Positions 5,684 through 29,344 of a stretch of DNA of 37,955 bases are shown here, piece by piece; within the stretch, counting starts at the first letter, position 1; every line of letters starts with the position of its first letter. The notes beneath the pieces were generated by a model that was given only the letters and a program-made list of their open reading frames with translations, did no database searches and had not been told where the DNA came from. The position numbers and the translations under genes were made by a program. This DNA comes from an uncultured Alphaproteobacteria bacterium (GTDB lineage Bacteria > Pseudomonadota > Alphaproteobacteria > HIMB59 > GCA-002718135): contig CACGRD010000010.1 of assembly GCA_902575375.1 (NCBI GenBank), forward strand, positions 1 to 37,955, in the 5' to 3' direction.

Positions 5684-5791
5684 TTACAAAATTTACAAAA
5701 ATAATAAATTCAAAGTAATTTTCTTTACATTAAAACTAAGAAAAACTCTAGTTTTTTTTTTTTTTATTATGTATTTGTAAAATCTGTAAAT
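5681..5791. promoter_or_regulatory. Divergent regulatory region with two paired TTTGTAAA boxes
   Basis: At the regulator end, TTTACAAA occurs at 5683-5690 and 5692-5699 (TTTGTAAA read on the minus strand), overlapping its ATG. At the other end TTTGTAAA lies at 5774-5781 and a second half, TGTAAA, at 5785-5790, one base before the small gene's ATG. In both pairs the boxes are 9 bases apart and oriented toward the gene they precede. The motif resembles the TTTGCAAA-type sites of RamB-family regulators. A run of 14 T (5752-5765) preceded by AAAAAC/GTTTTT lies between them. Binding is inferred, not shown. Confidence 0.6.
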
Positions 5792-5971: not shown

Positions 5972-5991
5972 TTATATTAGATTTTAATTCT

Positions 5992-8375: not shown

Positions 8376-8642
8376 TTATTGAATATTATCTATCTCTTTT
8401 TTAGAAATATATCCAATAGTTTTACCTTTATTGTCAGTAACTACTATTGTTAAATTATCTTCGAGAATTTTATTTTTAAAATTTTTTAGTTTTATATTTT
8501 GATTTACTTTGTAAATAGAACCTAATGTTAAATTATCTTTATTAAAATTGTTCTCAATTATCATTATATTTTTTGCCTCTAGATTGTCTATTCTATTTTC
8601 TTTGCTAGAAAAAAAATTAAGTAAAAATTTAAATATATTCAT
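8376..8642 (-). CDS. Small protein with a half-CBS-like C-terminus
   Basis: An 88-residue basic, Asn/Lys/Ile-rich protein. Its C-terminal segment LTIVVTDNKGKTIGYISKKE resembles the last strand-turn-helix of a CBS motif (hydrophobic strand, D-x-x-G, GxIS, charged helix), and MIIENNFNKDNLTLGSIYKV resembles the beginning of one. A normal CBS module has two such motifs; here at most one is present, so it could dimerise to form a site. It lies between the ABC ATPase (19 bases away) and the SDR (adjacent), so it is translated in the importer operon. Function is unknown. Confidence 0.6.
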   Translation of the reverse strand: MNIFKFLLNFFSSKENRIDNLEAKNIMIIENNFNKDNLTLGSIYKVNQNIKLKNFKNKILEDNLTIVVTDNKGKTIGYISKKEIDNIQ

Positions 8643-8661
8643 TATTTAAAATATAGATTTA

Positions 8662-10275
8662 CTAGGAAGATCTTTTATTCAGAAGATTGGTTAGCCAATC
8701 AGGATCCATTTCTGGGACTGAAGACAATAAAAGTTCTGTATAATCAGGATATGGTGGATTTAAAATTTTACTTTTCAAACCCTGTTCCACAACCTCACCT
8801 TGATACATAACAACTATTTCATCTGAGATTGCTTTAACTGTTGCTATATCATGAGTAATAAAAATATAAGTTACACCAAGCTCTTTTTGTAATTTTTGGA
8901 GTAATTTTAATATTCCTTCTTGAACAATTTGATCTAGCGCTGATGTCACCTCATCACAAATAATTAAATCTGGGTTAGCCGCTAAAGCTCTTGCAATGCA
9001 TATTCTCTGTTTTTGACCTCCAGATAATTCGGATGGTAATCTATCTAAAAAAGTTTCATCTAGCTCAATCATTTTTAATAATTCAATAACTTTTGCTTCT
9101 CTTTCTTTCCCTTTTATACCTTGATAAAATTCTATTGGCCTTCCTATTATTTCATCAACAGTTTGACGAGGGTTCATTGCAGTGTCAGGCATTTGAAAAA
9201 TTATTTGAATTCTTCTTAATTCTTCTTTTGACCTTTGCTCAAGTTTTGGAGACAATTTTTTTCCATCAAAAATTATTTCTCCTTTTAATTGAGGAAGTAA
9301 GCCTGTAATTACTCTTGCTGTTGTTGATTTCCCTGATCCACTTTCACCAACTATAGCTACTGTTTTACCTTTAGGAATATCTATAGAAACATTGTGTAAG
9401 ACCTTTGATGAGCCATATGCTGCATCAATATTTTTAATAGACAACATATAATCTTCATTTGTTTCTTCAGGCTTGATCAGTGATCTTACTGACCATAGAG
9501 ATTTGGTGTATTCTTCTTTTGGGTTTGATAGCATATCTCTTGTTTCAGCTTCTTCAACTTCTTCACCGTATCGCAAAACTTTTATTCTATCAGCCATTTG
9601 CGCAACTACGGCTAAATCATGAGTAATATAAATTGCTGCTGTATTAAATTTATCTACTATAGATCTCATAGCAGATAATACTTCAACTTGAGTTGTTACA
9701 TCTAAAGCTGTTGTGGGCTCATCAAATATAATTAACTCTGGTCTTGGGGACATAGCCATTGCAGTCATTATTCTTTGTAGTTGACCTCCAGATACTTGAT
9801 GCGGGTATCTATCTCCTATATTTTCCGCATCTGGAAGCTGTAGTGATTCATAAAGTTGAACTGCATCTTTTTTTAATACATCCGTTGGATTTATCTTTAA
9901 TCTATTAGCAGCACTTATTGTTTGGTCCATTAATCTATGGGCAGGATTAAAAGATGCTGCTGCTGATTGAGCAACATAAGATATTTTAGTTCCCCAAATT
10001 TTTCTCTTTTCAAATTCAGTTAGTTTAGCGAGGTCTATGCCATTAAAATTAATTTCTCCCTTTATAATCTTACAACCTGGTTGGGTATAGCCCATTGCAG
10101 CTTTACCCATAGTAGATTTTCCGGCACCACTCTCTCCAATTAATCCTAGTATTTCTCCTCTGTGTAAAGTCAAATCTACACCTTTTAAAATTTTATGCCA
10201 TCTCTCATCTGAAAATCCATCAATATGGATATTTTTCATTTCAAGTAGGAGTTCTTTTGATTTATTTAACGTCAT
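8662..10275 (-). CDS. ABC importer double ATPase (DppD-DppF-type fusion)
   Basis: A 537-residue protein with two complete peptide-type ATPase domains. Domain 1 has Walker A GESGAGKST (47-55), signature VSGGQLQR (161-168), Walker B LIIFDE (181-186) and the H-loop at H219. Domain 2 has GESGSGKST (310-318), LSGGQKQR (417-424) and LIICDE (437-442). It supplies both nucleotide-binding sites for the two permeases encoded just upstream. Its start overlaps the DppC-type gene by 14 bases. Fusion of the two ATPases is common in this transporter class (YejF, GsiA). Confidence 0.92.
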   Translation of the reverse strand: MTLNKSKELLLEMKNIHIDGFSDERWHKILKGVDLTLHRGEILGLIGESGAGKSTMGKAAMGYTQPGCKIIKGEINFNGIDLAKLTEFEKRKIWGTKISYVAQSAAASFNPAHRLMDQTISAANRLKINPTDVLKKDAVQLYESLQLPDAENIGDRYPHQVSGGQLQRIMTAMAMSPRPELIIFDEPTTALDVTTQVEVLSAMRSIVDKFNTAAIYITHDLAVVAQMADRIKVLRYGEEVEEAETRDMLSNPKEEYTKSLWSVRSLIKPEETNEDYMLSIKNIDAAYGSSKVLHNVSIDIPKGKTVAIVGESGSGKSTTARVITGLLPQLKGEIIFDGKKLSPKLEQRSKEELRRIQIIFQMPDTAMNPRQTVDEIIGRPIEFYQGIKGKEREAKVIELLKMIELDETFLDRLPSELSGGQKQRICIARALAANPDLIICDEVTSALDQIVQEGILKLLQKLQKELGVTYIFITHDIATVKAISDEIVVMYQGEVVEQGLKSKILNPPYPDYTELLLSSVPEMDPDWLTNLLNKRSS

Positions 10276-11182
10276 CTTTTAATCCGCTAGTAATGTAAAG
10301 ATACCAATCAACAACAAAATTAATTGATACACAAAGTAAAGCAATTGCAGCAGCTGGAATTAATGGTGTTAAACCTGCTGTTATATCATATTGCGCATAT
10401 TGAATAAGTATTGCATTTTCCCTCACCATTGATGCCCAATCTGCTGAAGGGGGTTGAATGCCAATTCCTAAAAAACTTAAACTAGATATTGTAAAAATTA
10501 TAAATATGAACCTTAAACCAAACTCAATAATCAAAGGTGAGGCTATATTAGGAAGTATTTCTCTGAAAATAATATATAATAAATTTTCACCTCTTAATCT
10601 CGCGACCTCTACATATTCTAGAACAACTTGACCAACAGCAACTGATCTTGATATTCTAAAAAATCTAGTTGACTCCAAAATTCCTAAAATGACAATTAAA
10701 TTAAAATTAGTAGGTCCAAAAACTGATAAAAGTATAAAAGTAAAAATCATTACAGGGATAGCCATAAGCGTGTCTACTATTCTACTTAATAGCTGATCTA
10801 AATACCTTCTATCCAGGGCAGCTATAATTCCAAATACTGTTCCAATTCCTAAAGCAATAAAAGTAGCCAATAAACAAATACCGATTGTATTTCTTGCAGC
10901 ATATATAATGCGAGAAAAAATATCTCTTCCAATTTGATCAGTACCAAATATATGACCATCACCCCAAGGAGCATAAGCTACTGGGAATATTTCTGCTTCT
11001 CCATGTGGAGCAATTAAGGGAGCAAATATTGCAGCAAAAAAATATATAAATAGTACAATCATACCAAACCAAGCTGAGATTGGAGCTTTTGATAAGGCAA
11101 TTTTTAATCTTTCTAATCTAGTTCTTCTTTTAATTAAATTTGCAACTTCACTTTTTGCAGAATAAGATAAATTTTCGCTCAT
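10262..11182 (-). CDS. ABC transporter permease, DppC type
   Basis: A 306-residue inner-membrane permease of the peptide/nickel class. A cytoplasmic N-terminus of about 35 residues is followed by a first membrane segment (WFGMIVLFIYFFAAIFAPLI), the periplasmic FGTDQIGRDIFSRI motif diagnostic of DppC/OppC proteins, and four to five further segments. The EAA coupling loop is at EVARLRGENLLYIIFREILP. It overlaps the DppB-type gene by four bases (ATGA) and the ATPase gene by 14, so all three are one transcription unit. The transported compound is not evident. Confidence 0.9.
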   Translation of the reverse strand: MSENLSYSAKSEVANLIKRRTRLERLKIALSKAPISAWFGMIVLFIYFFAAIFAPLIAPHGEAEIFPVAYAPWGDGHIFGTDQIGRDIFSRIIYAARNTIGICLLATFIALGIGTVFGIIAALDRRYLDQLLSRIVDTLMAIPVMIFTFILLSVFGPTNFNLIVILGILESTRFFRISRSVAVGQVVLEYVEVARLRGENLLYIIFREILPNIASPLIIEFGLRFIFIIFTISSLSFLGIGIQPPSADWASMVRENAILIQYAQYDITAGLTPLIPAAAIALLCVSINFVVDWYLYITSGLKDDVK

Positions 11183-12177
11183 TTTGGGTATAGTAACCTT
11201 GGGTTAGAAATAATTCCGATCAAGTCAGCAATTAAATTTAATATTACATATGTTGATGCAAAAATTAATGCACAAGCTTGAACAACGGGTAAATCTCGAT
11301 TATAGACTGATCCGACCATCAACCTACCAATACCTTGATAGTTAAAAACATATTCAACAACAACTGAGCCAATCAACATATAAGCTAAGTTTATTGCGAT
11401 TACTTGAGAAATAGGTGCCCAAGCATTTGGAAGTGCGTGTTTAACAATTACCTCGTATCTAGAAGCTCCCGATAATTTTGCCATTTCTATATATTCACTT
11501 GATAAGATATTTATTATCGCTGACCTTGTCATTCTCATCATGTGACCCATAGTAATTAATGTCAAAGTAAAAACTGGAAGAGCGGTCCTGTAAAATCTTT
11601 CAGCCAAAGTTGAAGCTTCATCCACATTAGAAATAGTTGGAAAAACTGGAAACAGTGTCGCTAGTAAAAGAATAAAAATATAGGCTGTAAAAAATTCTGG
11701 TGAAGATACGGTTACTAAGCTAACTCCAGTTGCTGACCTATCATAATAAGAGTTTCTGTATAATGCTGCTGAGATACCTAAGATTAAAGATAGAGGAATA
11801 GCCAACATGGCGGCAACCCCTGTTAAAAATAATGTATTTTTTAATCTGGGGACAATTAAACCAACAACTTCTCTAGACCTATCACCTTGATCCCCTTGAA
11901 CTTTAGATCTTCCAGAGAAAGAACTACCAAAATCTCCTTGAAAAACATTTCCTAACCAATCAAAATATCTTGTTACCGGAGGTTTATCTAAACCCAATTC
12001 TGCTCTTAGGGCTTTTACTGCAGATTTTGTTGCACTTTGACCTAATATTTCCGTGGCAAAGTCTCCAGGTAAAAAAGAGAATGTACTAAATATTATTACC
12101 GAAAATGCAAAAACTGTAACGAGACCAAGGCTAAGCCTTAACAAAATTGTTCTAAATATTGGATGAATTCTACTAAT
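11179..12177 (-). CDS. ABC transporter permease, DppB type, probably starting at a non-standard ATT codon
   Basis: A peptide-type permease with six membrane segments. It carries LPGDFATEILGQSAT after the first segment, and the coupling loop EMAKLSGASRYEVIVKHALP. The nearest conventional start, TTG at 12144, has no ribosome binding site and would begin inside the first membrane helix region. Eleven codons upstream in the same frame, ATT at 12177 follows AAGGAGG (12189-12183) at a five-base spacing and adds MSRIHPIFRTI, which matches the usual basic N-terminus of this group. I therefore place the start at 12177. If wrong, the gene begins at 12144. Confidence 0.82.
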   Translation of the reverse strand: MSRIHPIFRTILLRLSLGLVTVFAFSVIIFSTFSFLPGDFATEILGQSATKSAVKALRAELGLDKPPVTRYFDWLGNVFQGDFGSSFSGRSKVQGDQGDRSREVVGLIVPRLKNTLFLTGVAAMLAIPLSLILGISAALYRNSYYDRSATGVSLVTVSSPEFFTAYIFILLLATLFPVFPTISNVDEASTLAERFYRTALPVFTLTLITMGHMMRMTRSAIINILSSEYIEMAKLSGASRYEVIVKHALPNAWAPISQVIAINLAYMLIGSVVVEYVFNYQGIGRLMVGSVYNRDLPVVQACALIFASTYVILNLIADLIGIISNPRLLYPK

Positions 12178-12189
12178 ATTACCCTCCTT
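12175..12189 (-). promoter_or_regulatory. Strong Shine-Dalgarno followed by ATT initiation codon
   Basis: Reading the minus strand, AAGGAGG (12189-12183), GTAAT (five bases), then ATT (12177-12175). No ATG, GTG or TTG lies within usable distance in this frame. The Shine-Dalgarno sequence is one of the best in the window, in a genome where most starts have none, so it probably marks the true start of the DppB-type permease. ATT initiation is rare but known (infC). A sequencing error is the main alternative. Confidence 0.5.
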
Positions 12190-12378
12190 AAAGATACAAT
12201 CTTAATTCTTAAAGTTTTGTCTAAATTAGGTCAACATGTAAGCTAAAATTAATAATTTATACGTTGAATTAAAACGTTATATATGTTTTTATATATTAAC
12301 TTAAGTTTGTTTTTTGTTAAATTTCTAGAAATTATGAACAAAAATCTTAGGTTTTTGTTCAATTATAAGGGAGGACAA
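12178..12378. promoter_or_regulatory. Divergent promoter region and structured leader of the binding-protein gene
   Basis: This is the longest gap in the window, about 200 bases between the permease start and the binding-protein start. It must hold promoters for both directions. A short inverted repeat, ACGTT/AACGT (12261-12265 and 12273-12277), is a weak operator candidate. GAACAAAAA (12336-12344) and TTTTTGTTC (12352-12360) form a perfect 9-base stem with a 7-base loop, ending six bases before the AAGGGAGGA ribosome site (12367-12375). I see no recognisable riboswitch. No promoter boxes are convincing enough to place. Confidence 0.5.
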
Positions 12379-14007
12379 ATGAAAAATAAGAAAATAGACA
12401 AATACATTGAAGAACAGTCTTCAAAGCTAACAAAAGGGCTTATTAATAGAAGACAGTTCATGATGTCTGTCCTTGCTACTGGGGTCACGCTACCAATTGC
12501 ATTATCATTAGCAGATAAAGCAGTTGCAGCTACACCAAAAAAAGGTGGACATTTAAGATGGGGTAATAGTGCAGCAGATGCAACTGATACTCTTGATCCA
12601 GCAACTTATCAGAGCTCATTTATGCAAGCTACTGCTTGGTCATATCAGAACTGTCTAACTGTTGTTGATTCAGATCACACAATTGTTGGAGAGCTTGCTG
12701 AGTCAATTGAATCAGACGATGCTCAAACATGGGTATATAATCTTCGCAAAGGTGTTGAATTCCATAATGGTAAATCAATGACAGCAGAAGATGTTGTGCT
12801 CAACTATCAGTATCATATGAATCCAGATACTGCTTCGGCAGCAGGTGGACTTTTATCTCAAATTGAAACAGTTTCTACTGATGGAAATGACAGAGTTATT
12901 TTTAAGCTAAAAGGTGCAAATGCCGATTGGCCTGCAATAACTACTGACTATCACATTATGATTAAACCAACAAAAGATGGAGTTGTTGATGCTCAATCAA
13001 CGATTGGAACTGGTCCATATATTATGGATGAATTCAATCCTGGTGTTGGTGCAAAATTTGGAAAAAGAAATCCAAATTATTTCAAAGGTGATAGTGTTGC
13101 ACACTTTGATTCAGTTGAAGTAATCGGAATTAATGATCCTGCTACTAGACAAGCAGCATTATTAAACGGTGAAATTGACTGGATGAATGGTGTTGATCTT
13201 AGAACTGCTAATCTATTGACTAGAAATCCTAGTGTAGAAATTACAGCAGCTTCTGGTTACGCTCACTATACAGCTCCAATGAGATTGAACGTTCCACCGT
13301 TTGATAACTTTGATGTGCGTATGGCAATGAAGTTTGCAATTAAAAGACAGGAAATTGTTGATAAGATTATGCTTGGATATGGTACTGTTGGTAATGATCA
13401 TCCGATCTCTACTGCTCACCCATACCATAATAGCGCTTTAGAGCAGAGAGAGTTCGATGCTGATAAAGCTGCTTATCACTGGAAAAAATCTGGAGTAAGT
13501 GGACCAATTGAAATTAGTACTTCTGAGGTTCCTTATGCAGGATGTACAGACGCAACTAACTTGATAGCAGCATCTGCTCAAGAATGTGGTATCGATCTTC
13601 GAGTTAAAAAAGAACCTGAAGATGGTTACTGGAGTAACGTATGGAACACTAAAGGTTTCAGTATGAGTTCTTGGGGTGGAAGACCTACAGAAGATATGAT
13701 GTGGTCTGCTGCATTCACAGATGACACAGAGTGGAACGAAGCTGCTTGGGGTAATCTAGTTCAAACTGATTCAACTGTTCGTTTCAATGAACTTGTTAGA
13801 TCTGCTAGATCAGAACTTGATGCAGAAAAAAGAAAATCAATGTACTGGGAAGCACAAGCTCTTTGTAACTACGATGGTGGTGCAATTGTTTATGCATTTA
13901 ACCAATACGTTGGTGCTGGTTCTAAAAAACTTGCTCACGGTGAAGATGTTGCTGGTAACTGGGAAAGTGACGGTAACAAACTTTCTGAACGTTGGTGGTT
14001 TGCATAA
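12379..14007 (+). CDS. Tat-exported substrate-binding protein of a peptide/nickel-type ABC importer (SBP_bac_5)
   Basis: A 542-residue periplasmic binding protein. The start is ATG 12379, directly after AAGGGAGGA; an in-frame ATG 96 bases earlier would put a leader hairpin inside the coding region and lacks a ribosome site. The N-terminus carries twin arginines (LINRRQFMMSVLATGVTLP) and ends near AVAATPKK, so export is probably by Tat. DSLDPAT-type (TDTLDPATYQ) and VEFHNGKSMTAEDVVLNYQY motifs are typical of family 5 binding proteins. Codon use looks more GC-rich than neighbours, consistent with high expression. It is divergent from its own permease operon. The ligand is unknown. Confidence 0.9.
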   Translation: MKNKKIDKYIEEQSSKLTKGLINRRQFMMSVLATGVTLPIALSLADKAVAATPKKGGHLRWGNSAADATDTLDPATYQSSFMQATAWSYQNCLTVVDSDHTIVGELAESIESDDAQTWVYNLRKGVEFHNGKSMTAEDVVLNYQYHMNPDTASAAGGLLSQIETVSTDGNDRVIFKLKGANADWPAITTDYHIMIKPTKDGVVDAQSTIGTGPYIMDEFNPGVGAKFGKRNPNYFKGDSVAHFDSVEVIGINDPATRQAALLNGEIDWMNGVDLRTANLLTRNPSVEITAASGYAHYTAPMRLNVPPFDNFDVRMAMKFAIKRQEIVDKIMLGYGTVGNDHPISTAHPYHNSALEQREFDADKAAYHWKKSGVSGPIEISTSEVPYAGCTDATNLIAASAQECGIDLRVKKEPEDGYWSNVWNTKGFSMSSWGGRPTEDMMWSAAFTDDTEWNEAAWGNLVQTDSTVRFNELVRSARSELDAEKRKSMYWEAQALCNYDGGAIVYAFNQYVGAGSKKLAHGEDVAGNWESDGNKLSERWWFA

Positions 14008-14022
14008 AATTTTAATTTTCTA

Positions 14023-14046
14023 TGTGGCGCATTCAAATGCGCCACA
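14023..14046 (+). terminator. Hairpin after the binding-protein gene
   Basis: A perfect 10-base stem, TGTGGCGCAT (14023-14032) and ATGCGCCACA (14037-14046), closed by a TCAA tetraloop. It starts 15 bases after the binding-protein stop and is followed by a poor U-tract (CTATTTCTAC). It is the only GC-rich perfect hairpin seen between genes here. It probably ends or attenuates transcription and protects the binding-protein mRNA, leaving the downstream genes at lower expression by read-through. Confidence 0.75.
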
Positions 14047-14071
14047 CTATTTCTACTAATCTTCCAAAAAA

Positions 14072-14995
14072 ATGTTTTTAAAAAACACGAAATACCTCTT
14101 TGATGGAGGCTCAGGTCAAACTTTAATGGAAATGGGTTTGGAAACAACAGGTGATCTTTGGTCTGCACAAGCTTTATTAAATGAAAATAATCACTCAATG
14201 GTTTTAGATATGCACAAAAATTTTATAAATGCAGGATCACAATTAATCGTTACTTCAAATTTTAGTGTTAGAAGAAGGCTATTGAAAAAATATAATTTAC
14301 TTGATAAATTTGAATTTGGAATAAGATCTGCCGGATCACTCGCATTAAAAGCAAAAAATGAAAGTGATAAAAAAGTTATTGTTGCAGGCTCATTGCCAAA
14401 TCAAGGTAATACATATTCCCCAATACATTTTGAAACTGATGAAACAATGTTTAATTATTTTCATGAAATTGCAAAAATATTAAAAGATTATGTCGATATT
14501 TTTTACTTAGATGTTTTGTGTTCCATCAAAGAAATAAAAATTGCTTTAGAAGCTTCAAAAGAATTTAATAAACAAGTTCTTGTAGGTGCACACTTACGTT
14601 ATGATGGAAAATTACCATCTGGAGAAAGTCTTGATGAACTTTTTGAAACTATTCAAAAATTTAATTGTTGTGGGATAGTATCAGCCTGCGTATCACCTGA
14701 AATCGTTAATTTGAGTATTCCTATATTTAATAAACAAAAGCTTCCTTTTGGTTATAAAATGAATTTATTTAAACAACTGCCTACTAGTAATAAAGAAAAA
14801 TTCAATTCAGGGGGTTTTGAAGGACATTATGATTATATTGATCCCGTTGAGTTACTTGGAAGTCGAATTGAAGAATTTGGAGAAGAAAAATATAAAAAGT
14901 TTGTTTCAAATTCTTTAAATGAAGGTGTTACTCTAGTTGGTGGATGCTGTGAAGTAAAACCACGACATATTGAAGCTATTAAGAATTTATTTTAA
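14072..14995 (+). CDS. Homocysteine S-methyltransferase family protein
   Basis: A 307-residue Pfam S-methyl_trans protein. FDGGSGQTLMEMGL near residue 10 is the N-terminal barrel motif, TSNFSV the second strand, and VGGCCEVKPRHIEAI near residue 292 carries the paired zinc-binding cysteines; the third is probably C in VSACVSPE. These enzymes (MmuM, BHMT) move a methyl group from an onium donor such as S-methylmethionine or glycine betaine to homocysteine, giving methionine. It lies directly downstream of the importer binding protein and upstream of the GcvT-type genes. A T-run (14998-15007) follows the stop. The methyl donor is not determinable. Confidence 0.85.
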   Translation: MFLKNTKYLFDGGSGQTLMEMGLETTGDLWSAQALLNENNHSMVLDMHKNFINAGSQLIVTSNFSVRRRLLKKYNLLDKFEFGIRSAGSLALKAKNESDKKVIVAGSLPNQGNTYSPIHFETDETMFNYFHEIAKILKDYVDIFYLDVLCSIKEIKIALEASKEFNKQVLVGAHLRYDGKLPSGESLDELFETIQKFNCCGIVSACVSPEIVNLSIPIFNKQKLPFGYKMNLFKQLPTSNKEKFNSGGFEGHYDYIDPVELLGSRIEEFGEEKYKKFVSNSLNEGVTLVGGCCEVKPRHIEAIKNLF

Positions 14996-15036
14996 AATTT
15001 TTTTTTTATTATTTTGTGATAAGTTGAGTAAATTTT

Positions 15037-16266
15037 ATGGGAGATTTAGTTAGTAATTATAGATTTGTTGTAAAGCCAGTTATTAAAGAAACTGGTAGAT
15101 CTCTAGATTTGGCTAGACCCATGAAAATACATCCTCTAACTTATCAAGAGTTACCACTTAACCCAGAATATACTAACTATGCTGATGGCAGATTTACACT
15201 TGAAAAATTATCTCATGCTTCAGCAGATGAAATGTATTGGAAAGCTAGACAAGAAATAATTTTACGTCATACGGGTGAACATCCATATGAAATCTCTGGT
15301 CCGGATGCTGAAAATTTACTTCAACAAATATTTCCTAGAGATATTTCAAAAGTAAAAATTGGAAGATGCTCCTATCAATTTGCATGCTACCATGATGGAG
15401 GAATGATTTCAGATGGATTATTATTAAGATTAGAAAAAAATAAATTTTGGTTTGCACAAGGTGATGGACATTTATATAGTTGGTATAAAGCTCATTCAAA
15501 AAATTTAGATGTTGAAATTAAAGATCCAAATGTATGGGTCAGTCAAATACAAGGGCCTAAATCTCTAAAACTTCTAGAAAAACTAGTTGGTCAACCATTA
15601 AAAAATAATTTTAATTACTTTGATTGGGTTGAAACTTCAATTGCTTCAGAAGAAGTGATTATAAGCAGAACAGGGTTTACAAATGAACTTGGCTGGGAAA
15701 TTTATTTAAGGCCAGAAAATGATTCAAAAAAAATTGGAGACTTAATACTCAGTAAAGGTGAAGAAATGGGAATGATTCTAACAGCCTCACCAGGATTTAG
15801 ATGCAGAAGAATTGAGGCAGGTCTCTTATCTGCAGGGAGAGATTTTACAAGAGATCGATCTCCATTTGCTGTTGGATTAGGAAAGTTTATAGATTTTAAT
15901 AAAGGAGATTTTATTGGAAGAGATTATTTACTTAATGCAAGCAAAGATTGTTTAACATGGGGTATGAGAGTGGAAAATAGCTTTGCGTTGGTTGATTCTG
16001 AAATTTCTATTAATAATAAAAAAGTTGGAATGGTAACTTCAAGTACTTGGTCGCCATTTCAAGTTTGTGGTGTTGCTATAGTTCATATGGATAAAGCAGA
16101 ATTTGGACCAGACACAATAGTAGATGTTAGATGTGATGATGGTACTTTACAAAAAGGTGAAATATGTACTTTACCAATGTATGATAAGAAAGGAGAAATA
16201 CAAAGAGGTTTAAAAGAAGATATTCCGTCTAGCCCTATGCCTTGGAAGGGTATTTCAAAAAACTAA
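15037..16266 (+). CDS. GcvT-family aminomethyltransferase-like protein (probable folate-dependent demethylase)
   Basis: A 409-residue protein of the glycine cleavage T / DmdA superfamily. An N-terminal extension of about 60 residues precedes the fold. DGGMISDGLLLRL near 115-130 holds the conserved Asp of the folate site, SRTGFTNELGWEIYL near 210 the central motif, and RRIEAGLLSAGRDF near 260 the family's IEAGL motif. It is not the glycine cleavage enzyme itself, as no gcvH or gcvP lies nearby. The family moves a methyl or methylene group from N- or S-methylated substrates to tetrahydrofolate. It is first of seven tightly packed genes. Substrate unknown. Confidence 0.82.
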   Translation: MGDLVSNYRFVVKPVIKETGRSLDLARPMKIHPLTYQELPLNPEYTNYADGRFTLEKLSHASADEMYWKARQEIILRHTGEHPYEISGPDAENLLQQIFPRDISKVKIGRCSYQFACYHDGGMISDGLLLRLEKNKFWFAQGDGHLYSWYKAHSKNLDVEIKDPNVWVSQIQGPKSLKLLEKLVGQPLKNNFNYFDWVETSIASEEVIISRTGFTNELGWEIYLRPENDSKKIGDLILSKGEEMGMILTASPGFRCRRIEAGLLSAGRDFTRDRSPFAVGLGKFIDFNKGDFIGRDYLLNASKDCLTWGMRVENSFALVDSEISINNKKVGMVTSSTWSPFQVCGVAIVHMDKAEFGPDTIVDVRCDDGTLQKGEICTLPMYDKKGEIQRGLKEDIPSSPMPWKGISKN

Positions 16267-16314
16267 TATATTTTATAATAGAATTATAAATTATATTAGA
16301 ATACAAATATTAAA

Positions 16315-17478
16315 ATGAATGATCTCATTAAAGCTAGCACTAAAATCCATACAATAGATGATGCAATTAGGTTATCTAAAAAGAGATTACCAAAATTAGT
16401 CTTTGATTTCATTTATGGAGCATCAGGAGATGATAAACTTGCTGAAATTAATAGTAAAGCATTAGATCAAATTAGACTGGAACCTAAGGTTTTCAGAAAT
16501 GTCGAGAATAGAAATTTAAGTAAAAAAATATTTGATTTTCATTTTGATTATCCATTTGGATTTGCACCAATGGGAATGACAAATCTTTCATGGCCTGAAG
16601 CAGATAAAATGATAGCAAAAGAAAGTGCGTATAATAATATTCCAACATGTGTTTCAATGGCTTCTAGTACTACGCTTGAAGATATGTTTACTTTTTCAGA
16701 AGGTCATTCATGGATGCAAATATATATTTTTCAAAGTGAAGAATTTATTATGGAATTATTAAAAAGAGCAGAAAGCATTGGATACAAGGTTTTGATCCTC
16801 ACTGTCGATGTTCCAATTCTTTCAAGAAGGGCCAGAGATGACAGAAATGGCTTTGGTTATCCATTTAAAATTGGCCCAAAACAATTTTTAGATTTTGCAC
16901 TACATCCTCAATGGAGCTTAACAACTTTATTTAAAGGTGCTCCACAACCAATGAATTATGTTACCTCTAAAAGTGGTGATCAAGTTTTTAGACGAAAAGA
17001 AAGTAGAGGAGCAACTGATTGGAATACTCTAAAAAGGGTTCGAGACGCTTGGAAAGGAAAATTAATAATCAAAGGAGTAATGAATTCTGAAGATGCTTTG
17101 AAAATTAAAGAAGCTGACGCTGATGCAATTCAAGTATCAAATCATGGTGGGAGACAATTAGATAGTGCTACTGCTTCTATTAATGCTTTACCATTAATAC
17201 GAAAAGCTTTGGGAGATGATTTTCCAATACTTTTTGATAGTGGCATTAGAAGTGGTAGTGATATTTTACGAGCATTAGCTCTGGGAGCTAACTTTGTTAT
17301 GTTTGGCAGACCTTTAATGTATGCTATTGGAGCAGATGGTGCAAGAGGTCTTAGAAGAATCATTAACCTAATTAAAGAAGAGTTAAGTACAAATCTTGGC
17401 TTAGTGGGATTAACCGATATAAATGAAGTTGATAAAAAAATTATAGCAGAGAAATTTTTTAAGGATATAAAGTATTAA
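16315..17478 (+). CDS. FMN-dependent alpha-hydroxyacid dehydrogenase (LldD/glycolate oxidase family)
   Basis: A 387-residue flavin enzyme. PFGFAPMGMTNL (about 80-91) and WMQIYI (133-138) line the FMN, TVDVP (163-167) is the strand before the substrate pocket, and QVSNHGGRQLD (273-283) holds the catalytic His277 and the substrate-binding Arg280. DSGIRSGSDI binds the FMN phosphate. These enzymes oxidise a 2-hydroxy acid to a 2-oxo acid. It is followed one base later by a ThDP enzyme, a pairing that suggests oxidation then cleavage or decarboxylation of the 2-oxo acid. Lactate or glycolate would be the default substrates, but the context argues for something more specific. Confidence 0.9.
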   Translation: MNDLIKASTKIHTIDDAIRLSKKRLPKLVFDFIYGASGDDKLAEINSKALDQIRLEPKVFRNVENRNLSKKIFDFHFDYPFGFAPMGMTNLSWPEADKMIAKESAYNNIPTCVSMASSTTLEDMFTFSEGHSWMQIYIFQSEEFIMELLKRAESIGYKVLILTVDVPILSRRARDDRNGFGYPFKIGPKQFLDFALHPQWSLTTLFKGAPQPMNYVTSKSGDQVFRRKESRGATDWNTLKRVRDAWKGKLIIKGVMNSEDALKIKEADADAIQVSNHGGRQLDSATASINALPLIRKALGDDFPILFDSGIRSGSDILRALALGANFVMFGRPLMYAIGADGARGLRRIINLIKEELSTNLGLVGLTDINEVDKKIIAEKFFKDIKY

Positions 17479-17479
17479 G

Positions 17480-19222
17480 ATGGGAGATAAAAAGATTAGA
17501 GGTGGGGCATTAGTTGCTAGAGCTCTTAAAGACAAAGGTATTGATAATGTTTTTACACTTTCTGGAGGTTTTTGTAATCCGGCACTTGAAGGATTTATGG
17601 AGTGTCAAATTAATGTAATTAATTGTCCTCATGAACAAATTGCTGGTCATTTAGCTGATGGTCATACTAGAATATCAAGAAAACCTTCTGTTTGTATTGT
17701 TGGACCAGAAGGTTTTGCAAATGCAGTACCCTCAATGATGGAAGCTTGGGGTGAAAGATCCCCTGTTATTTTTATAACTGGATCTAGTAGCTTAAAAAGA
17801 CAAGGATCAGGGGGTTTTAAGGAAATAGATGATGTATCTATTGCTGCACCTTTAACAAAATACAGTGCAAGTATAACAGATGGCAATAGAATAAGGGAGT
17901 TCGTAGATAAAGCTTATAGAATTGCAACAAATGGCTATCCTGGTGCTGTACATTTAAGTGTACCAGTAGATATAATGTTTTCATCATTTGCAGATGATGC
18001 AGGTTTAGAAGAAAGACCTTTTACTCATCAAAAGAAACCTTTAGCAAAAGCTTGGCCTGATCCTGAGAGTTTAAATGAAATATTTAATCTGGCAATTAGT
18101 GCGCAAAAACCTGTTTTTATTGGAGGGCATGGTGTTTGGTGGTCTAGTGCAGAAAAAAAATTAGAACAAGCTGGCTTTGAATTAAACATTCCAATATTTA
18201 ATATACCATACCATCAAAAGCTTTTAGGTGAAGAGGCAGATACATACATGGGTCTGGCAGATATTCATCAATATCCTCCATCAAAAATGGCTCTAAATGA
18301 ATCAGATTTGGTTCTTATGATTGGTGCACGTCTTGATAATCAAATGAATTTTGGTAATCCTCCACTTTTTCCAAAAAGCACTAAGCTTATTTGTATTAAT
18401 GGATCGCATGAAGAAATTGAACTAAATAGAGCTGCAGATATTAACTTACTTTGTGATCCTGGAGTTTTTTTGGACAAACTCATAGAATTAAAGAAAAACA
18501 GTAAATGGAAATTAAACAATCAATGGTTTGATAAGAATAAAAAAGAGAAAAAAAATTGGATTGATAAAACATTAGATAAATTAAATAAAGAAACTGAAGA
18601 GACGAAAAAAAATGGCGGAAAAATTCATCCTCTTCAATTAGCTTTAGATGTTCAAGAAGTATTAACTGAAAATGATTGGTTAGTTATTGATGGTGGAAAT
18701 ACACATTTCTGGTCTGAGATCGCAATTAATATTGCTGGATCAAAAGGTAAAAAACTTGGAGGAATATTGCATCCAGGTACTTTTAGTATGTTAGGTGTTG
18801 GAGTTCCTTTTGCAATATCAGCGAAAAATCTTAATCCTAAATCTAATGTTGTTTTAATAAGTGGAGATGGTGCATTTTTATCTGGTGGATTATCAATTGA
18901 AGCTGCATTTCAAGAAAAAAAACCTATTGTTGTAGTTATAGATAACAATGGAGGTCTTGACTGTATCTTACAACAACAAGAAAGATTATTTGAAAGTGGG
19001 AAACACTTTGCAACTGATTTTAGAGATATTCCATTTCATTCAATTTTTGAGGGTTTTGGAGGGCATGGGGAATTAGTTACTAAAAGAGAAGATTTAGCCC
19101 CGGCTTTAAAAAGAGCGTTAGATAGTGGTAAAACTGCATGTGTAAATGTTAAGGCTAAAGGTGTTATAAGTCCAATAGTTGCTGCAGTTAGTGATAAAAG
19201 AGATAAAGCGTCTATAGAGTAG
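17480..19222 (+). CDS. Thiamine-diphosphate enzyme (acetolactate synthase / 2-hydroxyacyl-CoA lyase superfamily)
   Basis: A 580-residue ThDP enzyme. E52 in CPHEQIAGHLADGH is the cofactor-activating glutamate. ITGSSSLKRQGSGGFKEIDD near 95-115 resembles the 2-hydroxyacyl-CoA lyase / oxalyl-CoA decarboxylase branch. SGDGAFLSGGLSIEAA near 467, ending in VVVIDNN, is the ThDP/Mg motif. It may decarboxylate or cleave a 2-oxo acid or 2-hydroxyacyl-CoA to an aldehyde. It begins one base after the FMN dehydrogenase stop. No small acetolactate-synthase subunit is nearby, so branched-chain biosynthesis is unlikely. Confidence 0.85.
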   Translation: MGDKKIRGGALVARALKDKGIDNVFTLSGGFCNPALEGFMECQINVINCPHEQIAGHLADGHTRISRKPSVCIVGPEGFANAVPSMMEAWGERSPVIFITGSSSLKRQGSGGFKEIDDVSIAAPLTKYSASITDGNRIREFVDKAYRIATNGYPGAVHLSVPVDIMFSSFADDAGLEERPFTHQKKPLAKAWPDPESLNEIFNLAISAQKPVFIGGHGVWWSSAEKKLEQAGFELNIPIFNIPYHQKLLGEEADTYMGLADIHQYPPSKMALNESDLVLMIGARLDNQMNFGNPPLFPKSTKLICINGSHEEIELNRAADINLLCDPGVFLDKLIELKKNSKWKLNNQWFDKNKKEKKNWIDKTLDKLNKETEETKKNGGKIHPLQLALDVQEVLTENDWLVIDGGNTHFWSEIAINIAGSKGKKLGGILHPGTFSMLGVGVPFAISAKNLNPKSNVVLISGDGAFLSGGLSIEAAFQEKKPIVVVIDNNGGLDCILQQQERLFESGKHFATDFRDIPFHSIFEGFGGHGELVTKREDLAPALKRALDSGKTACVNVKAKGVISPIVAAVSDKRDKASIE

Positions 19223-19225
19223 GTT

Positions 19226-19561
19226 ATGGCAATTTTTTCTACACATTTACTAAACTCAATAGATGGTACGCATGCAAGTGATGTAGAAATTGTTATTCAT
19301 AAAGTAAATAATAATAACAAAGTTGTATTTCTAGAGGATAAAACAGATAGCACTGGAAGAATGCTTAAAGAATTTGAATTAACGAAAGAAGATTGTGAAA
19401 GTGATTATGAAATGATAATTAATTCTGGTAAATATTTTAGAAATACTAGTGAAATAATTAATTCAATAAGTGTTAAATTTAAAATGAAAGATCCTCTTAA
19501 AAAATACCACATACCTCTAATTATTTCTCCAAATGGATACTCAATATGGTGGTCAAAATAA
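19226..19561 (+). CDS. Transthyretin-like / 5-hydroxyisourate hydrolase family protein with altered C-terminus
   Basis: A 111-residue protein of the HIUase/transthyretin fold. H7 (FSTHLLNSIDG), R45 (TDSTGRM) and H95 (KYHIPLIISPNGYS) match the three catalytic residues of HIUase. The diagnostic C-terminal Tyr-Arg-Gly-Ser is replaced by Trp-Trp-Ser-Lys. No uricase, OHCU decarboxylase or other purine gene is in the window. It lies between the ThDP enzyme (gap 3) and the DmdA-like gene (gap 1). It may hydrolyse a different ring or lactam-like intermediate, or be non-catalytic. Fold is confident; function open. Confidence 0.8.
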   Translation: MAIFSTHLLNSIDGTHASDVEIVIHKVNNNNKVVFLEDKTDSTGRMLKEFELTKEDCESDYEMIINSGKYFRNTSEIINSISVKFKMKDPLKKYHIPLIISPNGYSIWWSK

Positions 19562-19562
19562 A

Positions 19563-20684
19563 ATGAGTAATTCAGGATTAAACATGTCTAGACGTATAAG
19601 GAGAACTCCTTATACCGAGAAAGTAATTGAGGCTGGTGTAAGTGGTTTTACTGTAGTTAATCATATGCTTCTTCCAAAATCATATAAAGCAACAGTAGAA
19701 GAAGATTATTGGCACTTATCTAAAAATACTCAAATTTGGGATGTTTCATGTCAACGACAGGTTCAAATACTAGGAGAAGATGCTCCAAAATTAATACAAC
19801 TCATGTCTCCAAGATCTATAAAAGATATGCCTATTGGTAAATGTTACTATTATCCAATGATTGATGAAAATGCAGGGATGATAAATGATCCTGTACTTTT
19901 AAAATTAAGTGAAAATAAATATTGGCTATCAGTTGCAGACTCAGATGTTCTTCTTTGGGCAAAGGGATTGGCTGTAGGAAGAAACTTTAAAGTTGATATT
20001 ATAGAGCCAGATATTTACCCCCTAGCAATTCAAGGTCCAAAATCTGAAGAATTAATGTCATCAATATTTGGAGAAAAAATTAAAAAATTAAAATTCTTTC
20101 ATTTTTCTTTTTTTGAATTTGAAGGAACAAAGCAGATAATTGCAAGATCAGGATATAGCAAACAAGATGGTTTTGAGATTTATCTTAAAGGTTTTAGTTT
20201 AGGGAAAAAACTTTGGGAAACTATTTGGGAAGCAGGAAAAGATTTTAATATTTCACCTGGATGTCCAAATTTAATTGATAGGATAGAAGGTGGTTTATTA
20301 TCTTATGGTAATGAATTTACTTTAGAAAATAATCCAATTGAATGTGGATTTGATAATTATTGTAACAATTTATCTCATGATTTCATTGGAAAAAAAGAAC
20401 TAAAAAAAATATTAAAAAAAGGAATAGAAAAAAAAATAAAAGGAATTACTTTTGATGGGTCCCCGACTCCTCAATGCTCAATACCTTTTCCTGTATATTC
20501 AAAAAATAGATTTCAAATTGGTAATATCACCTCTGGTATTTATTCACCGTTTTTAAAAACCAATATTGGGCTATCAATGGTTGATAGAGATTATTGGAAT
20601 GATGGACAGGATGTTATCGTATTGACACCAGACAATATTGAGAGAAAAGGTAAAGTGTGCTCACTACCTTTTAATAATTCTTAA
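19563..20684 (+). CDS. dmdA: DmdA-like folate-dependent demethylase (DMSP demethylase family)
   Basis: A 373-residue protein from ATG 19563. A frame open from 19533 overlaps the upstream gene and is not needed; ATG 19584 (MSRRIRRTP) is another option. The segments SRRIRRTPYTEKV, YTVxNHMLLP-type (FTVVNHMLLP), DYWHLSKN, QIWDVSCQRQVQI, INDPVLLKL, PLAIQGPKS, ARSGYSKQ and CPNLIDRIEGGLLSYGNE follow the DMSP demethylase pattern closely. DmdA moves a methyl group from dimethylsulfoniopropionate to tetrahydrofolate, giving methylmercaptopropionate. Close paralogues act on other substrates, so DMSP is likely but not proven. It is co-transcribed with a second GcvT-type gene. Confidence 0.72.
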   Translation: MSNSGLNMSRRIRRTPYTEKVIEAGVSGFTVVNHMLLPKSYKATVEEDYWHLSKNTQIWDVSCQRQVQILGEDAPKLIQLMSPRSIKDMPIGKCYYYPMIDENAGMINDPVLLKLSENKYWLSVADSDVLLWAKGLAVGRNFKVDIIEPDIYPLAIQGPKSEELMSSIFGEKIKKLKFFHFSFFEFEGTKQIIARSGYSKQDGFEIYLKGFSLGKKLWETIWEAGKDFNISPGCPNLIDRIEGGLLSYGNEFTLENNPIECGFDNYCNNLSHDFIGKKELKKILKKGIEKKIKGITFDGSPTPQCSIPFPVYSKNRFQIGNITSGIYSPFLKTNIGLSMVDRDYWNDGQDVIVLTPDNIERKGKVCSLPFNNS

Positions 20685-20685
20685 A

Positions 20686-21132
20686 ATGAGTCATTCAATT
20701 GAATTAAAGTGGGAATTAGGAGATCAAAAACTCGAATTTGGAAAATACTTAACTGATCACACAGTAATACTTAACGAAAATGTATCTATTGATGCGGGAT
20801 CATCTCCAGATTATGGAGGGAGTGAAACCAATATTAATCCAGAACAAAAACTAGCTGCGGCTGTAAGTAGTTGTTTTATGATGACGTTTTTAGCTTTAGC
20901 TGCAAAAATGAAATGGCCAGTTATTAATTATAAAGATAAAGCAATTTCGTATTTAGGAAAAAATGCAGAGGGAAGAATGTACGTTAACAAAATAGAGCTA
21001 AATCCAGCCATAGTATTTGAAGATAATTTTACTATTACTGATGAAGAAATGAAAAAAATGAAAGAAAGATCGCATAAATATTGTTTTATCGCTAATTCAC
21101 TATCTAAAGATGTTGAAATTCAAATCAATTAA
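20686..21132 (+). CDS. OsmC-like two-cysteine protein
   Basis: 148 residues from ATG 20686, one base after the DmdA-like stop. A longer in-frame start at 20638 would overlap that gene and adds a non-homologous leader. The first conserved cysteine is C63 (AAVSSCFMMTFLALA) and the second C133 (HKYCFIANSLS), the OsmC/Ohr arrangement. Members reduce organic hydroperoxides by a thiol mechanism, using a partner thiol for recycling. In this operon it may handle a sulfur species or peroxide made by the FMN enzyme; that is speculation. The stop directly abuts the next ATG. Confidence 0.8.
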   Translation: MSHSIELKWELGDQKLEFGKYLTDHTVILNENVSIDAGSSPDYGGSETNINPEQKLAAAVSSCFMMTFLALAAKMKWPVINYKDKAISYLGKNAEGRMYVNKIELNPAIVFEDNFTITDEEMKKMKERSHKYCFIANSLSKDVEIQIN

Positions 21133-21924
21133 ATGAATTTTAATCTAATTTTAACAGAAAAAAATAATAATATTTTTAGCATTATTCTTAATGACCAGAA
21201 AAACCAAAACACTTTAAGTGAAAACATGATCAATGAATTAACATCAGCATTAGATAATGCTGATAAAGATGATGAAGTAAAAGTAATTATTTTATCATCA
21301 AAAGGTGACATTTTTTGTGCAGGACATAATTTAAAAGATTTAAATTCTCAAAGATTGCAAAATGACAAAGGTGAAAGCTATTTTAAAAAAATATTTCAAA
21401 TGTGCTCTCAACTTATGCTGAAAATTAATAAAAATAATAAACCAGTTATAGCTATGGTTGATGGTATCGCTACCGCAGCAGGCTGTCAGTTAATTTCTAG
21501 TTGTGATTTAGCTTACTCAAGTAGCAGAGCAAAATTTGCAACTCCTGGTGTTAATATTGGATTATTTTGTTCTACACCAATGGTTGCATTATCAAGGACT
21601 GTAGGGAAAAAGCAAGCAATGGAAATGCTTCTCACTGGAGATCTTATAGATGCAAATAAAGCATTAAGGATTGGTTTAATAAATGATGTGTTTGAAGAAG
21701 ATAGTTTAAAAGAAAATGTATTTCAAATTGCTAAAAAAATATCGTCTAAATCTTCTAATACTATTAAAATTGGTAAAGAAGCATTTTACAAACAAAAAGA
21801 TATGAATTTAGAAGACGCATATACTTTTACTTCAGAGGTAATGACAGAAAATATGTTACATGATGATTCCAGGGAAGGTATTGAAGCTTTTTTAGAAAAA
21901 AGAGAACCAAACTGGAAAGAATAA
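21133..21924 (+). CDS. Crotonase-fold protein (ECHDC3-like), lacking the hydratase glutamates
   Basis: A 263-residue crotonase-family protein. FCAGHNLKDL (61-70) and GIATAAGCQLISSCD (111-125) give the CoA-binding and oxyanion-hole segments. The two glutamates of enoyl-CoA hydratase are missing: Q119 stands in the first position, and ATPGVNIGLFCSTP has Gly/Val where the second would be. It is therefore probably not a hydratase but another crotonase activity (isomerase, decarboxylase or thioester hydrolase), in line with ECHDC3-type relatives. It is the last gene of the plus-strand block, converging on an aldehyde dehydrogenase seven bases away. Confidence 0.82.
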   Translation: MNFNLILTEKNNNIFSIILNDQKNQNTLSENMINELTSALDNADKDDEVKVIILSSKGDIFCAGHNLKDLNSQRLQNDKGESYFKKIFQMCSQLMLKINKNNKPVIAMVDGIATAAGCQLISSCDLAYSSSRAKFATPGVNIGLFCSTPMVALSRTVGKKQAMEMLLTGDLIDANKALRIGLINDVFEEDSLKENVFQIAKKISSKSSNTIKIGKEAFYKQKDMNLEDAYTFTSEVMTENMLHDDSREGIEAFLEKREPNWKE

Positions 21925-29343: not shown

Positions 29344-29344
29344 A

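Follow-up and report, generated by a model that had tools for sequence, protein, structure and literature searches.

Demethylation of DMSP by DmdA, a folate-dependent demethylase of the GcvT fold, is among the closest described systems to the locus here presented, and to our knowledge FMN, ThDP or transthyretin-like enzymes form no part of that pathway. In the mandelate/benzoylformate and 2-ketoarginine (AruI/GbuA) pathways, a 2-hydroxy or 2-amino acid is turned into a 2-oxo acid on which a ThDP-dependent step follows; we know of no methyl-transfer genes in either of them. Transthyretin-fold 5-hydroxyisourate hydrolases (HIUases) act on a purine ureide, and MttB-like proteins have been associated with nitrogen compounds. 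Demethylation of glycine betaine by MtgBCD has also been described (PMC12478193).

The operon lies in a window (the whole stretch of DNA analysed) of 37,955 nucleotides from a HIMB59-order alphaproteobacterium. Its demethylase, DmdA-B, shares the fold of DmdA, passes the DMSP demethylase model and shares 48% identity with P. ubique DmdA (3tfh), but falls in a separate clade. The module would follow a logic comparable to that of the mandelate/benzoylformate and AruI/GbuA pathways, with a ThDP step on a 2-oxo acid, although the ThDP families of those pathways are absent among the matches listed for the operon enzyme. As a likeness to MtgBCD, some loci, SAR116-type and Rhodobacteraceae-like, carry an MttB-superfamily methyltransferase next to the module. 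A conserved catabolic unit in which methyl-transfer genes accompany 2-hydroxyacid oxidation and ThDP chemistry is apparently undescribed, and we lean slightly towards reading it as a widespread, uncharacterised module of marine Alphaproteobacteria for the catabolism of a hydroxy acid bearing a methylated onium group (N- or S-methyl).

Composition of the locus

The ORF list and Pfam/NCBIfam profile searches revealed eight same-strand genes (14072-21924, Table 1), of the families assigned to them in the sequence-only reading, with two starts to be moved. The DmdA ORF as listed overlaps the transthyretin-like gene, while ATG 19563 lies one base past the stop of the latter and matches the N-terminus of relatives upon sequence comparison, being probably the true start; that of OsmC is probably ATG 20686, one base after DmdA. 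With both starts moved, the gaps of 0-48 bases reported earlier are right, those among the first five genes being 41, 48, 1 and 3 bases, and the crotonase gene directly following that of OsmC. Its earlier description as a non-hydratase also fits, since the two positions that we take to be the usual catalytic Glu, as read directly off the sequence, are Gln and Gly.

The unit is bigger than previously stated, as it borders on the SBP_bac_5 gene and on divergent Dpp-type permease and ATPase genes (8662-12144). Between the SBP gene and the first operon gene there is a hairpin (14023-14046), but terminator-like sites are at chance level (4 observed versus 4.4 expected). The eight operon proteins are under purifying selection, with pairwise dN/dS values, computed with the longer listed starts, of 0.05-0.20 against a same-genus genome and of 0.06-0.16 for seven ORFs against a more distant locus, where dS for OsmC is saturated. 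The DppC-type permease shows a value of 0.019 against the same-genus genome.

Table 1. Genes of the operon and its surroundings in the window.
Feature	Coordinates	Strand	Basis and remarks
DppDF-type fused ABC ATPase, peptide/opine-type importer	8662..10275	-	divergent from operon; family read from sequence
DppC-type permease	10262..11182	-	ORF; module-adjoining homologues
DppB-type permease	11179..12144	-	ORF; DppB matches in other loci
SBP_bac_5 (PF00496) solute-binding protein of importer	12283..14007	+	upstream, same direction as operon
Homocysteine S-methyltransferase (PF02574)	14072..14995	+	profile match
GcvT-A, stand-alone GcvT/folate-binding protein (PF01571)	15037..16266	+	profile match
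FMN-dependent 2-hydroxyacid dehydrogenase/oxidase (PF01070)	16315..17478	+	profile match, residues
ThDP enzyme, three-domain	17480..19222	+	Pfam domains, PDB relatives; no close characterised relative
Transthyretin/HIUase-type hydrolase (PF00576), separate kind	19226..19561	+	profile match, residues
DmdA-B, DmdA-like folate-dependent demethylase (PF01571 GcvT/DmdA)	19563..20684	+	profile, tree; ORF listed from 19533
OsmC/Ohr-type peroxiredoxin (PF02566)	20686..21132	+	profile match; ORF listed from TTG 20638
Crotonase-fold protein (PF00378)	21133..21924	+	PRK08139 model, over cut-off
Aldehyde dehydrogenase (ALDH)	21932-23404	-	adjoins operon in window; likewise in L113, L114

Order of the core and its exchangeable partners

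The core order FMN, ThDP, transthyretin-like and DmdA-like is found again in genomes of SAR11, SAR116-type, Rhodobacteraceae-like and HIMB59-order bacteria, so that the arrangement whose conservation the sequence-only reading had proposed to check is kept far outside the contig. Among 115 loci scored (54 HIMB59-order, 26 SAR11 and 35 others), the transthyretin-like gene lies directly downstream of ThDP in all 115, the DmdA-like gene downstream in 109, and the FMN gene upstream in 107. Six of the loci have the ThDP and transthyretin-like genes without FMN and DmdA, which counts against the onium reading, as methyl groups may play no part in the core reaction. Gene order in itself carries no direct information on chemistry.

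Flanking genes vary by lineage while the core order is kept. The homocysteine methyltransferase appears in 43/54 HIMB59-order, 1/26 SAR11 and 0/35 other loci, and GcvT-A upstream in 48/54, 23/26 and 0/35, respectively; OsmC and crotonase genes were found in 50 and 47 of the 54 HIMB59-order loci. MttB-like proteins (329 bits, under the cut-off of 525) have matches in 9 of the 35 other loci, and PhyH-type (2OG) dioxygenases appear in L181 and L183. These swapped partners fit the removal of methyl groups, and in L206 the module stands next to a formate-THF ligase (904 bits) as well as a FolD-like ORF. Judging from its PF02574 domain (138 bits) and C-terminal GGCC zinc motif, the homocysteine S-methyltransferase belongs to its family, with the general and betaine-type NCBIfam models tying at 85 bits, both below cut-off. 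GcvT-A is far from DmdA (184 bits versus a cut-off of 410).

Core enzymes and candidate reactions

Domain score (391.7 bits) and catalytic residues place the FMN enzyme in PF01070, the equivalents of Tyr129, Asp157, Lys230, His254 and Arg257 being kept in 35/35 proteins. Its best PDB relatives are tandem lactate oxidase constructs, followed by (S)-mandelate dehydrogenase 6bfg. Lactate, mandelate and glycolate oxidases being its closest relatives, ordinary use of a 2-hydroxyacid such as glycolate or lactate might be considered, with the demethylases serving some other end; a GlcD-like ORF near the module in L209 (read from sequence) also agrees with it, as do the transporter genes of TRAP and Tct-like type close to some of the loci. 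Nonetheless, we regard it as quite improbable. Tyr24, a carboxylate ligand in glycolate oxidase, is replaced by Phe in 31 proteins and kept in 2 (gapped in the remaining 2 of the 35), the DmdA-like gene follows ThDP in 109/115 loci, all 28 operon copies in the DmdA tree form one clade, and glyoxylate carboligase chains reach no more than 95 bits against the ThDP enzyme.

The three ThDP Pfam domains of the latter are over cut-off, while of 51 NCBIfam models the 25 best all fall short of theirs, which assigns the superfamily but not a named family. Its counterparts from two other families share 70-73% identity with it, and Glu52 and Lys114 are invariant in 42/42. Its best PDB relative is of the 2-hydroxyacyl-CoA lyase/oxalyl-CoA decarboxylase type (8vzc, 184 bits), which, together with the PhyH-type proteins adjoining ThDP in L181 and L183, recalls alpha-oxidation. 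However, the lyase similarity is remote, no acyl-CoA ligase was noticed in the core module, and most loci have an FMN dehydrogenase instead.

The transthyretin-like protein is akin to HIUases (2g2n, E 3e-11) and keeps equivalents of His9, Arg47 and His98, presumably the HIUase catalytic residues, in 40/40 clustered proteins (those from two of the 42 loci fell outside the cluster and were left out). On the contrary, the YRGS signature is lost in 40/40 and the tail Tyr is Trp in 40/40, tails being mostly W-x-S (WWSS, WWSE, WWSK, WYSG and others); the TIGR02962 score, 69.7 bits, is under the cut-off of 87.45, and, unlike in HIUases, a ThDP gene adjoins at every locus scored. The purine ureide substrate of HIUases indicates a ring or amide substrate, which counts against the onium reading. 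In such a pathway, the HIUase-like protein would open a cyclic amide or ureide, or an N-methylated heterocycle, the ThDP enzyme would cleave the product, and methyl-transfer genes would merely clear N-methyls. The conserved triad, the constancy of this gene as ThDP partner and the recurrence nearby of amide-hydrolase-type families (S51 peptidase; asparaginase in L050 and L184; agmatinase-family proteins in L207 and L213; an AllD/malate-dehydrogenase-type protein in L048, under cut-offs) speak for it. We consider it unlikely all the same, given the lost substrate signature, the few loci holding each of the agmatinase, asparaginase and AllD-type genes, the fact that no gene for urate or allantoin was apparent among the labelled ORFs, and the company of the paralogous ThDP family.

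These paralogues sit either with choline/betaine genes, which in L217, as in L263, are those of an OpuAC/ProX-type binding protein, a choline-type ABC system, choline sulfatase (in L217 615 bits, cut-off 433) and a GMC protein resembling choline dehydrogenase, or with a DmdA-like gene, in L218 and L264, in the order GMC-ThDP-DmdA-like-crotonase. A flavin alcohol oxidase beside ThDP beside onium genes counts for the onium reading.

The best NCBIfam models for the SBP_bac_5 protein (NikA/GsiB/Opp-like) are all far under cut-off; DppB matches appear in 38/54 HIMB59-order, 20/26 SAR11 and 16/35 other loci, many of them cut by contig ends, and DppDF-type ATPase homologues adjoin the module in many SAR11 and SAR116-type and some Rhodobacteraceae-like loci. 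Dpp, TRAP, Pot-type and, as judged by eye, Tct-like transport genes near the loci indicate several solute classes, against the onium reading, and the S51 peptidase, common in SAR11 and SAR116-type loci and lacking in HIMB59-order ones, suggests that even the first step differs between lineages.

For an onium hydroxy acid, we infer an order in which the substrate would enter through the ABC importer (in a few loci perhaps TRAP-type genes) and the flavin enzyme would oxidise its hydroxyl to a carbonyl, the FMN enzyme converting a 2-hydroxy into a 2-oxo acid. The ThDP enzyme would attack this carbonyl, with ensuing cleavage or decarboxylation, and the transthyretin-fold hydrolase would act on the labile product. 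DmdA-B and exchangeable helpers (GcvT-A, homocysteine methyltransferase, MttB-like) would pass methyl groups to folate, homocysteine or corrinoid, while OsmC may remove peroxide arising at the FMN step. No gene establishes the onium substrate, and neither an S-onium nor an N-onium is proven.

DmdA-B and the reading of DMSP surveys

DmdA-B scores 530.6 bits on the DMSP demethylase model NF009133 (cut-off 410) and its SAR11 operon copy 521; this model is loose, since it lets through a remote DmdA-like protein from L218 as well (420 bits). In the tree, the 28 operon rows form one clade (99/93), sister to that of the 14 canonical rows including 3tfh (99/95), which places DmdA-B, as far as its sequence tells, outside the clade of characterised DmdA. 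The onium-contact Trp of DmdA, W171 (PMC7487153), which we equate with 3tfh Trp197, is Tyr in operon rows and Trp in SAR11/HIMB59 canonical rows, with Tyr also in canonical Rhodobacteraceae-like L219 and L221. Around four canonical dmdA genes, no FMN, ThDP or transthyretin-like genes were found.

While the general idea of methylated onium 2-hydroxy acid degradation proposed earlier gains from the conserved unit and its methyl-removal partners, the specific route from DMSHB through the 2-oxo acid and aldehyde to DMSP, then demethylated by the operon DmdA, does not hold up well and appears highly unlikely. The FMN, ThDP, DmdA and ALDH families fit it. However, the demethylase is non-canonical and 11 of 18 carriers checked hold a canonical DmdA elsewhere (in the genome of the window, on another contig); the annotated loci of SAR11, SAR116-type and Rhodobacteraceae-like genomes show no ALDH next to the core among their labelled ORFs; the route leaves the transthyretin-like hydrolase, ThDP's most constant partner, without a job; and on chemical grounds one would expect dimethyl sulfide to be lost from the aldehyde by elimination. 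L049 has one ALDH-like match, beyond the importer. The argument from clade and second DmdA is weaker than it first appears, because in 7/18 carriers (three of them one-contig genomes; G292 is one case) the operon gene is alone over the DmdA cut-off, and there DmdA-B could simply be a DMSP demethylase.

As a special case of the onium reading, DMSP synthesis might run in reverse, DmdA-B converting DMSHB into MTHB, the FMN enzyme yielding MTOB and, in the SAR11 version, an aminotransferase methionine, which would supply reduced sulfur to cells in need of it. At least one microbe is reported to accumulate DMSHB (PMC11306096), DmdA-B is sister to a dimethylsulfonium demethylase, a class IV aminotransferase lies downstream in 20/26 SAR11 loci, and in L213 a Cys/Met-metabolism PLP enzyme adjoins DmdA-B. 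Still, there is little to recommend it: the ThDP and transthyretin-like pair would have no part, a dimethylsulfonium has one transferable methyl whereas most HIMB59-order and SAR11 loci hold two or three methyl-transfer proteins, MttB-like proteins are associated with nitrogen compounds, and the SAR11 aminotransferase passes a branched-chain model.

Surveys link dmdA subclade B/3 to Ca. Puniceispirillum marinum (PMC6309047), and subclades B/3 and B/4 have been assigned to SAR116 (PMC6771949). We tentatively suggest, as a possible though doubtful extension, a common unrecognised onium-hydroxyacid pathway shared by SAR11, SAR116, some Rhodobacteraceae and the HIMB59-order lineage, with surveys counting its demethylase as 'dmdA clade B'; the suggestion is tempered by the 7/18 carriers just mentioned, where DMSP is still possible. 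With two pure cultures of SAR116 in existence (PMC8547437), the question may be directly testable.

The operon gene is easily mistaken for a DMSP-degrading enzyme, and passing the DmdA model, or possibly matching dmdA clade B primers, need not mean DMSP demethylation. Carriers of the module include some of the sea's most numerous heterotrophs and its order is kept across bacterial orders, which makes its substrate probably a common metabolite, one that, as far as searches show, the literature has not linked to these genes. If the proposal is true, part of the ocean 'DMSP demethylation potential' would be a different reaction, and the transthyretin-like/ThDP pair would be a new enzyme couple.

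The probable catabolic unit and its genomic setting

The window, contig 10 of its assembly, belongs to a genome of 1.09 Mb that is 66% complete. Among named genomes, its closest relatives are single-cell genomes of uncultured marine alphaproteobacteria, AG-891-K05 and AG-337-I02 included; the sister family within the order includes a closed genome of 1,410,127 bases. Profile searches assigned all eight catabolic genes to the families named by the sequence-only reading, in the order homocysteine methyltransferase, GcvT-A (a stand-alone GcvT), FMN 2-hydroxyacid dehydrogenase, ThDP enzyme, transthyretin-like protein, DmdA-B (a DmdA-like demethylase), OsmC and crotonase. The gaps of 0-48 bases that it had described were also borne out, once the starts of DmdA-B and OsmC, probably listed too early, were moved downstream. 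Upstream of the operon lies a codirectional SBP_bac_5 binding-protein gene, with Dpp-type permease and ATPase genes divergent; since these adjoin the catabolic genes, the unit probably combines import and catabolism. Promoter and terminator scans returned sites not above those of shuffles, and hairpin or terminator-type sites in the window were counted at chance level.

Coordinates of the features in the window and in the compared loci (L numbers)
Feature	Position	Strand	Description
Window, eight catabolic genes	14072-21924	+	One direction; ORFs with family assignments
Window, DmdA-B, probable start	19563		
Window, OsmC, probable start	20686		
Window, hairpin	14023-14046		Ten pairs, between binding-protein gene and start of the catabolic genes; may be an attenuator or mark a 3' end
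Window, flanks of operon	911-3233 and 28204-30775		Carnitine/gamma-butyrobetaine-type genes on either side: thioesterase, BKACE-family, carnitine-dehydrogenase-like, gamma-butyrobetaine-dioxygenase-like, aldehyde dehydrogenase; all below NCBIfam cut-offs
Window, HD-domain protein	332-910		Weakly similar to phosphonate oxygenases TmpB/PhnZ
L217 and L263, second ThDP family	5581-14614 (L217); 6287-15360 (L263)		ProX/W/V-type transporter (in L217 a binding protein of OpuAC/ProX type with ABC ATPase and permease of choline/betaine type; similar genes in L263), GMC choline-dehydrogenase-like protein, choline sulfatase, ThDP enzyme
L119 (SAR11)	14727-21103		Pot-type transporter, Asp/Glu-racemase-like and M24-peptidase-like genes near module
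L213 (Rhodobacteraceae-like)			Pot-type transporter and Asp/Glu-racemase-like genes near module
L044 (same genus) and L174 (distant family)	16521-17456 (L044); 12003-12986 (L174)		Membrane fatty-acid-hydroxylase/sterol-desaturase-like protein just past module, by eye; none at corresponding place in window

Conservation of the core across lineages

Relatives of the ThDP enzyme were confirmed in at least 537 stretches of named genomes, the best 80 of 537 being kept as those closest to the query by score, and counts from them are not those of a random sample. Matches were found in 6 of 385 genomes sampled for the class (own genome and one congener included; E <= 1e-90), in 2 of 398 for the phylum (own included), and in 33/136, 5/14 and 12/295 genomes of three further groups (E <= 1e-110). 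The viral contigs searched held no relative of this enzyme. Within the genus, the protein was found, whole or partial and at 84-100% identity, in 36 of 49 genomes (own included); as the searched genomes are 53-89% complete, it may be near universal there.

Gene order was scored in 54 loci of HIMB59-order type (L061-L114), 26 of SAR11 (L115-L140) and 35 of other genomes, these last being the subset of matches retrieved with long flanks from sampled genomes; ORFs lacking an HMM call were labelled by eye from sequence, and several missing partners correspond to contig ends. The transthyretin-like gene lies 3' of the ThDP gene, on the same strand and within 400 bases, in every locus (54/54, 26/26 and 35/35, respectively). 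A DmdA-like gene follows downstream in 54/54, 26/26 and 29/35, and the FMN gene precedes in 53/54, 26/26 and 28/35, the single HIMB59-order-type locus lacking it beginning inside the ThDP gene. GcvT-A is found upstream in 48/54, 23/26 and 0/35, and the homocysteine methyltransferase in 43/54, 1/26 and 0/35. The gene order thus recurs outside this contig, the check that the sequence-only reading had proposed, and, since genes outside the module vary by lineage, it is the cluster itself that is conserved and not general synteny.

Typical SAR11 loci show a Dpp importer followed by GcvT-A, S51 peptidase, FMN, ThDP, transthyretin-like, DmdA-B, thiolase and class IV aminotransferase genes, and SAR116-type ones a Dpp importer, S51, MttB-like in some, LysR, and the FMN to DmdA-B core. 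The same core is displayed by Rhodobacteraceae-like loci, frequently with LysR and with varying MttB-like, TRAP-type, Ldh2-type, PanE-like and FAH genes. Six loci (L050, L181, L183, L184, L185 and L216) carry the ThDP and transthyretin-like genes alone of the core, and L206 lacks FMN and keeps the DmdA-like gene. In L181 and L183 the pair is accompanied by PhyH-type dioxygenases, and L183 also holds a NuoE/F-like protein and a molybdopterin oxidoreductase, read as a putative formate dehydrogenase. PanE-like plus FAH, agmatinase-like, proline-racemase-family and ACAD-like genes, each in only one or two loci, were kept out of the mechanism. S51 peptidase was found elsewhere in 0 of 10 HIMB59-order genomes, a search run without positive control that shows little.

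DmdA-B and canonical DmdA

DmdA-B scores 530 bits, passing the NCBIfam DMSP demethylase cut-off of 410, and is 48% identical to the P. ubique DmdA structure (3tfh); each of the 20 genomes examined holds at least one protein above this cut-off. Among 18 operon carriers, 11 have a second over-cut-off copy outside the operon, which falls in the canonical clade; the window's genome is one of these 11 (contig 3 copy, 67% identical to 3tfh). The operon gene is the sole such protein in the other seven (G292, G458, G941, G905, G1092, G1156 and G1246), several of which are incomplete, G292, G458 and G941 being single contigs; the proposition that all carriers possess a canonical DmdA besides the operon gene is therefore wrong. 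Both non-carriers examined (G049 and G050) contain the canonical copy. In a 49-row tree, 28 operon proteins form one clade (99/93) and 14 canonical proteins another (99/95), and a 58-row tree restoring the nine rows left out (eight GcvT-A and one distant GcvT) agrees with it. No FMN, ThDP or transthyretin-like genes were found around four canonical genes. Separate clades, second canonical copies and these differing surroundings weigh against the operon enzyme being simply the DMSP demethylase of the cell, and do so most clearly where both copies are present, in 11 carriers. Trp or Tyr at the DMSP-contact position was dropped as a test of DmdA function, two canonical rows also having Tyr.

Active sites, candidate substrates and wider meaning

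Three catalytic residues are kept in 40/40 transthyretin-like proteins, the signature Tyr being Trp in 40/40. The FMN enzyme retains five catalytic positions in 35/35, its Tyr24 equivalent being Phe in 31, Tyr in 2 and a gap in 2, and the ThDP enzyme retains Glu52 and Lys114 in 42/42, Lys114 being, we find, unusual. These proteins look like working enzymes with altered substrate sites. Gene content and order, the clades and the conserved residues are what was observed; beyond them we infer a route in which (i) the substrate would be imported, (ii) its hydroxyl oxidised to a carbonyl, (iii) the carbonyl attacked by ThDP, (iv) a labile product hydrolysed by the transthyretin-like protein, and (v) methyl groups handed to folate as well as further acceptors.

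A second ThDP family, at 36-38% identity, occurs in two arrangements, that of L217 and L263, apparently an undescribed choline-related route, and a GMC, ThDP, DmdA-like and crotonase series in L218 and L264, these four loci belonging to three genomes (L217 and L218 both to G1177). Common to both ThDP families is a flavin alcohol oxidase beside the ThDP gene, together with onium genes, a pattern that provides the best, albeit indirect, support for an onium substrate. As to the kind of onium, the indications diverge, the MttB-like and choline-type neighbours pointing to nitrogen and the kinship with DmdA to sulfur. The homocysteine methyltransferase scores equally with general and betaine-type models.

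Among natural 2-hydroxy acids carrying a methyl-onium group, DMSHB (4-dimethylsulfonio-2-hydroxybutyrate) is the only one that we can name. The sequence-only reading suggested, as one concrete route, its conversion to DMSP and then demethylation by the operon DmdA, a route whose odds are slightly raised by the seven carriers without a second DmdA. DMSHB is not favoured as substrate, because it leaves the ThDP/transthyretin-like pair and several demethylases unexplained, and we consider this route very improbable. A study of DMSP synthesis reports a DMSHB decarboxylase domain that resembles ureidoglycolate lyase, and the absence of DMSHB decarboxylase activity from R. pomeroyi (PMC11306096); the former offers an interesting parallel to the HIUase-like protein of the module. 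A module for a methylated onium hydroxy acid, N- or S-methyl, remains our main reading.

The gene set is not described in the literature covered, partly accessible and with most subscription journals outside its scope, which dealt with the breakdown of DMSHB, the combination of genes itself, homarine operons, the structure of DmdA and its paralogues, AEGEAN-169, and clade B of dmdA. The enzyme families are known; what appears new is how they are combined, together with the transthyretin-like subtype and the sister clade of DmdA found there. As far as their accessible parts go, surveys tie dmdA clade B to SAR116 (PMC6309047, PMC6771949), and a SAR116 genome study reports that dmdA is confined to a subgroup other than that of the isolates (PMC8547437). 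The dmdA clade B of surveys may be the operon gene. Lowered by the seven carriers without a second DmdA, our expectation is a tentative one, doubtful on balance: marine lineages would harbour an unrecognised onium-hydroxyacid pathway, its demethylase being counted as dmdA clade B.
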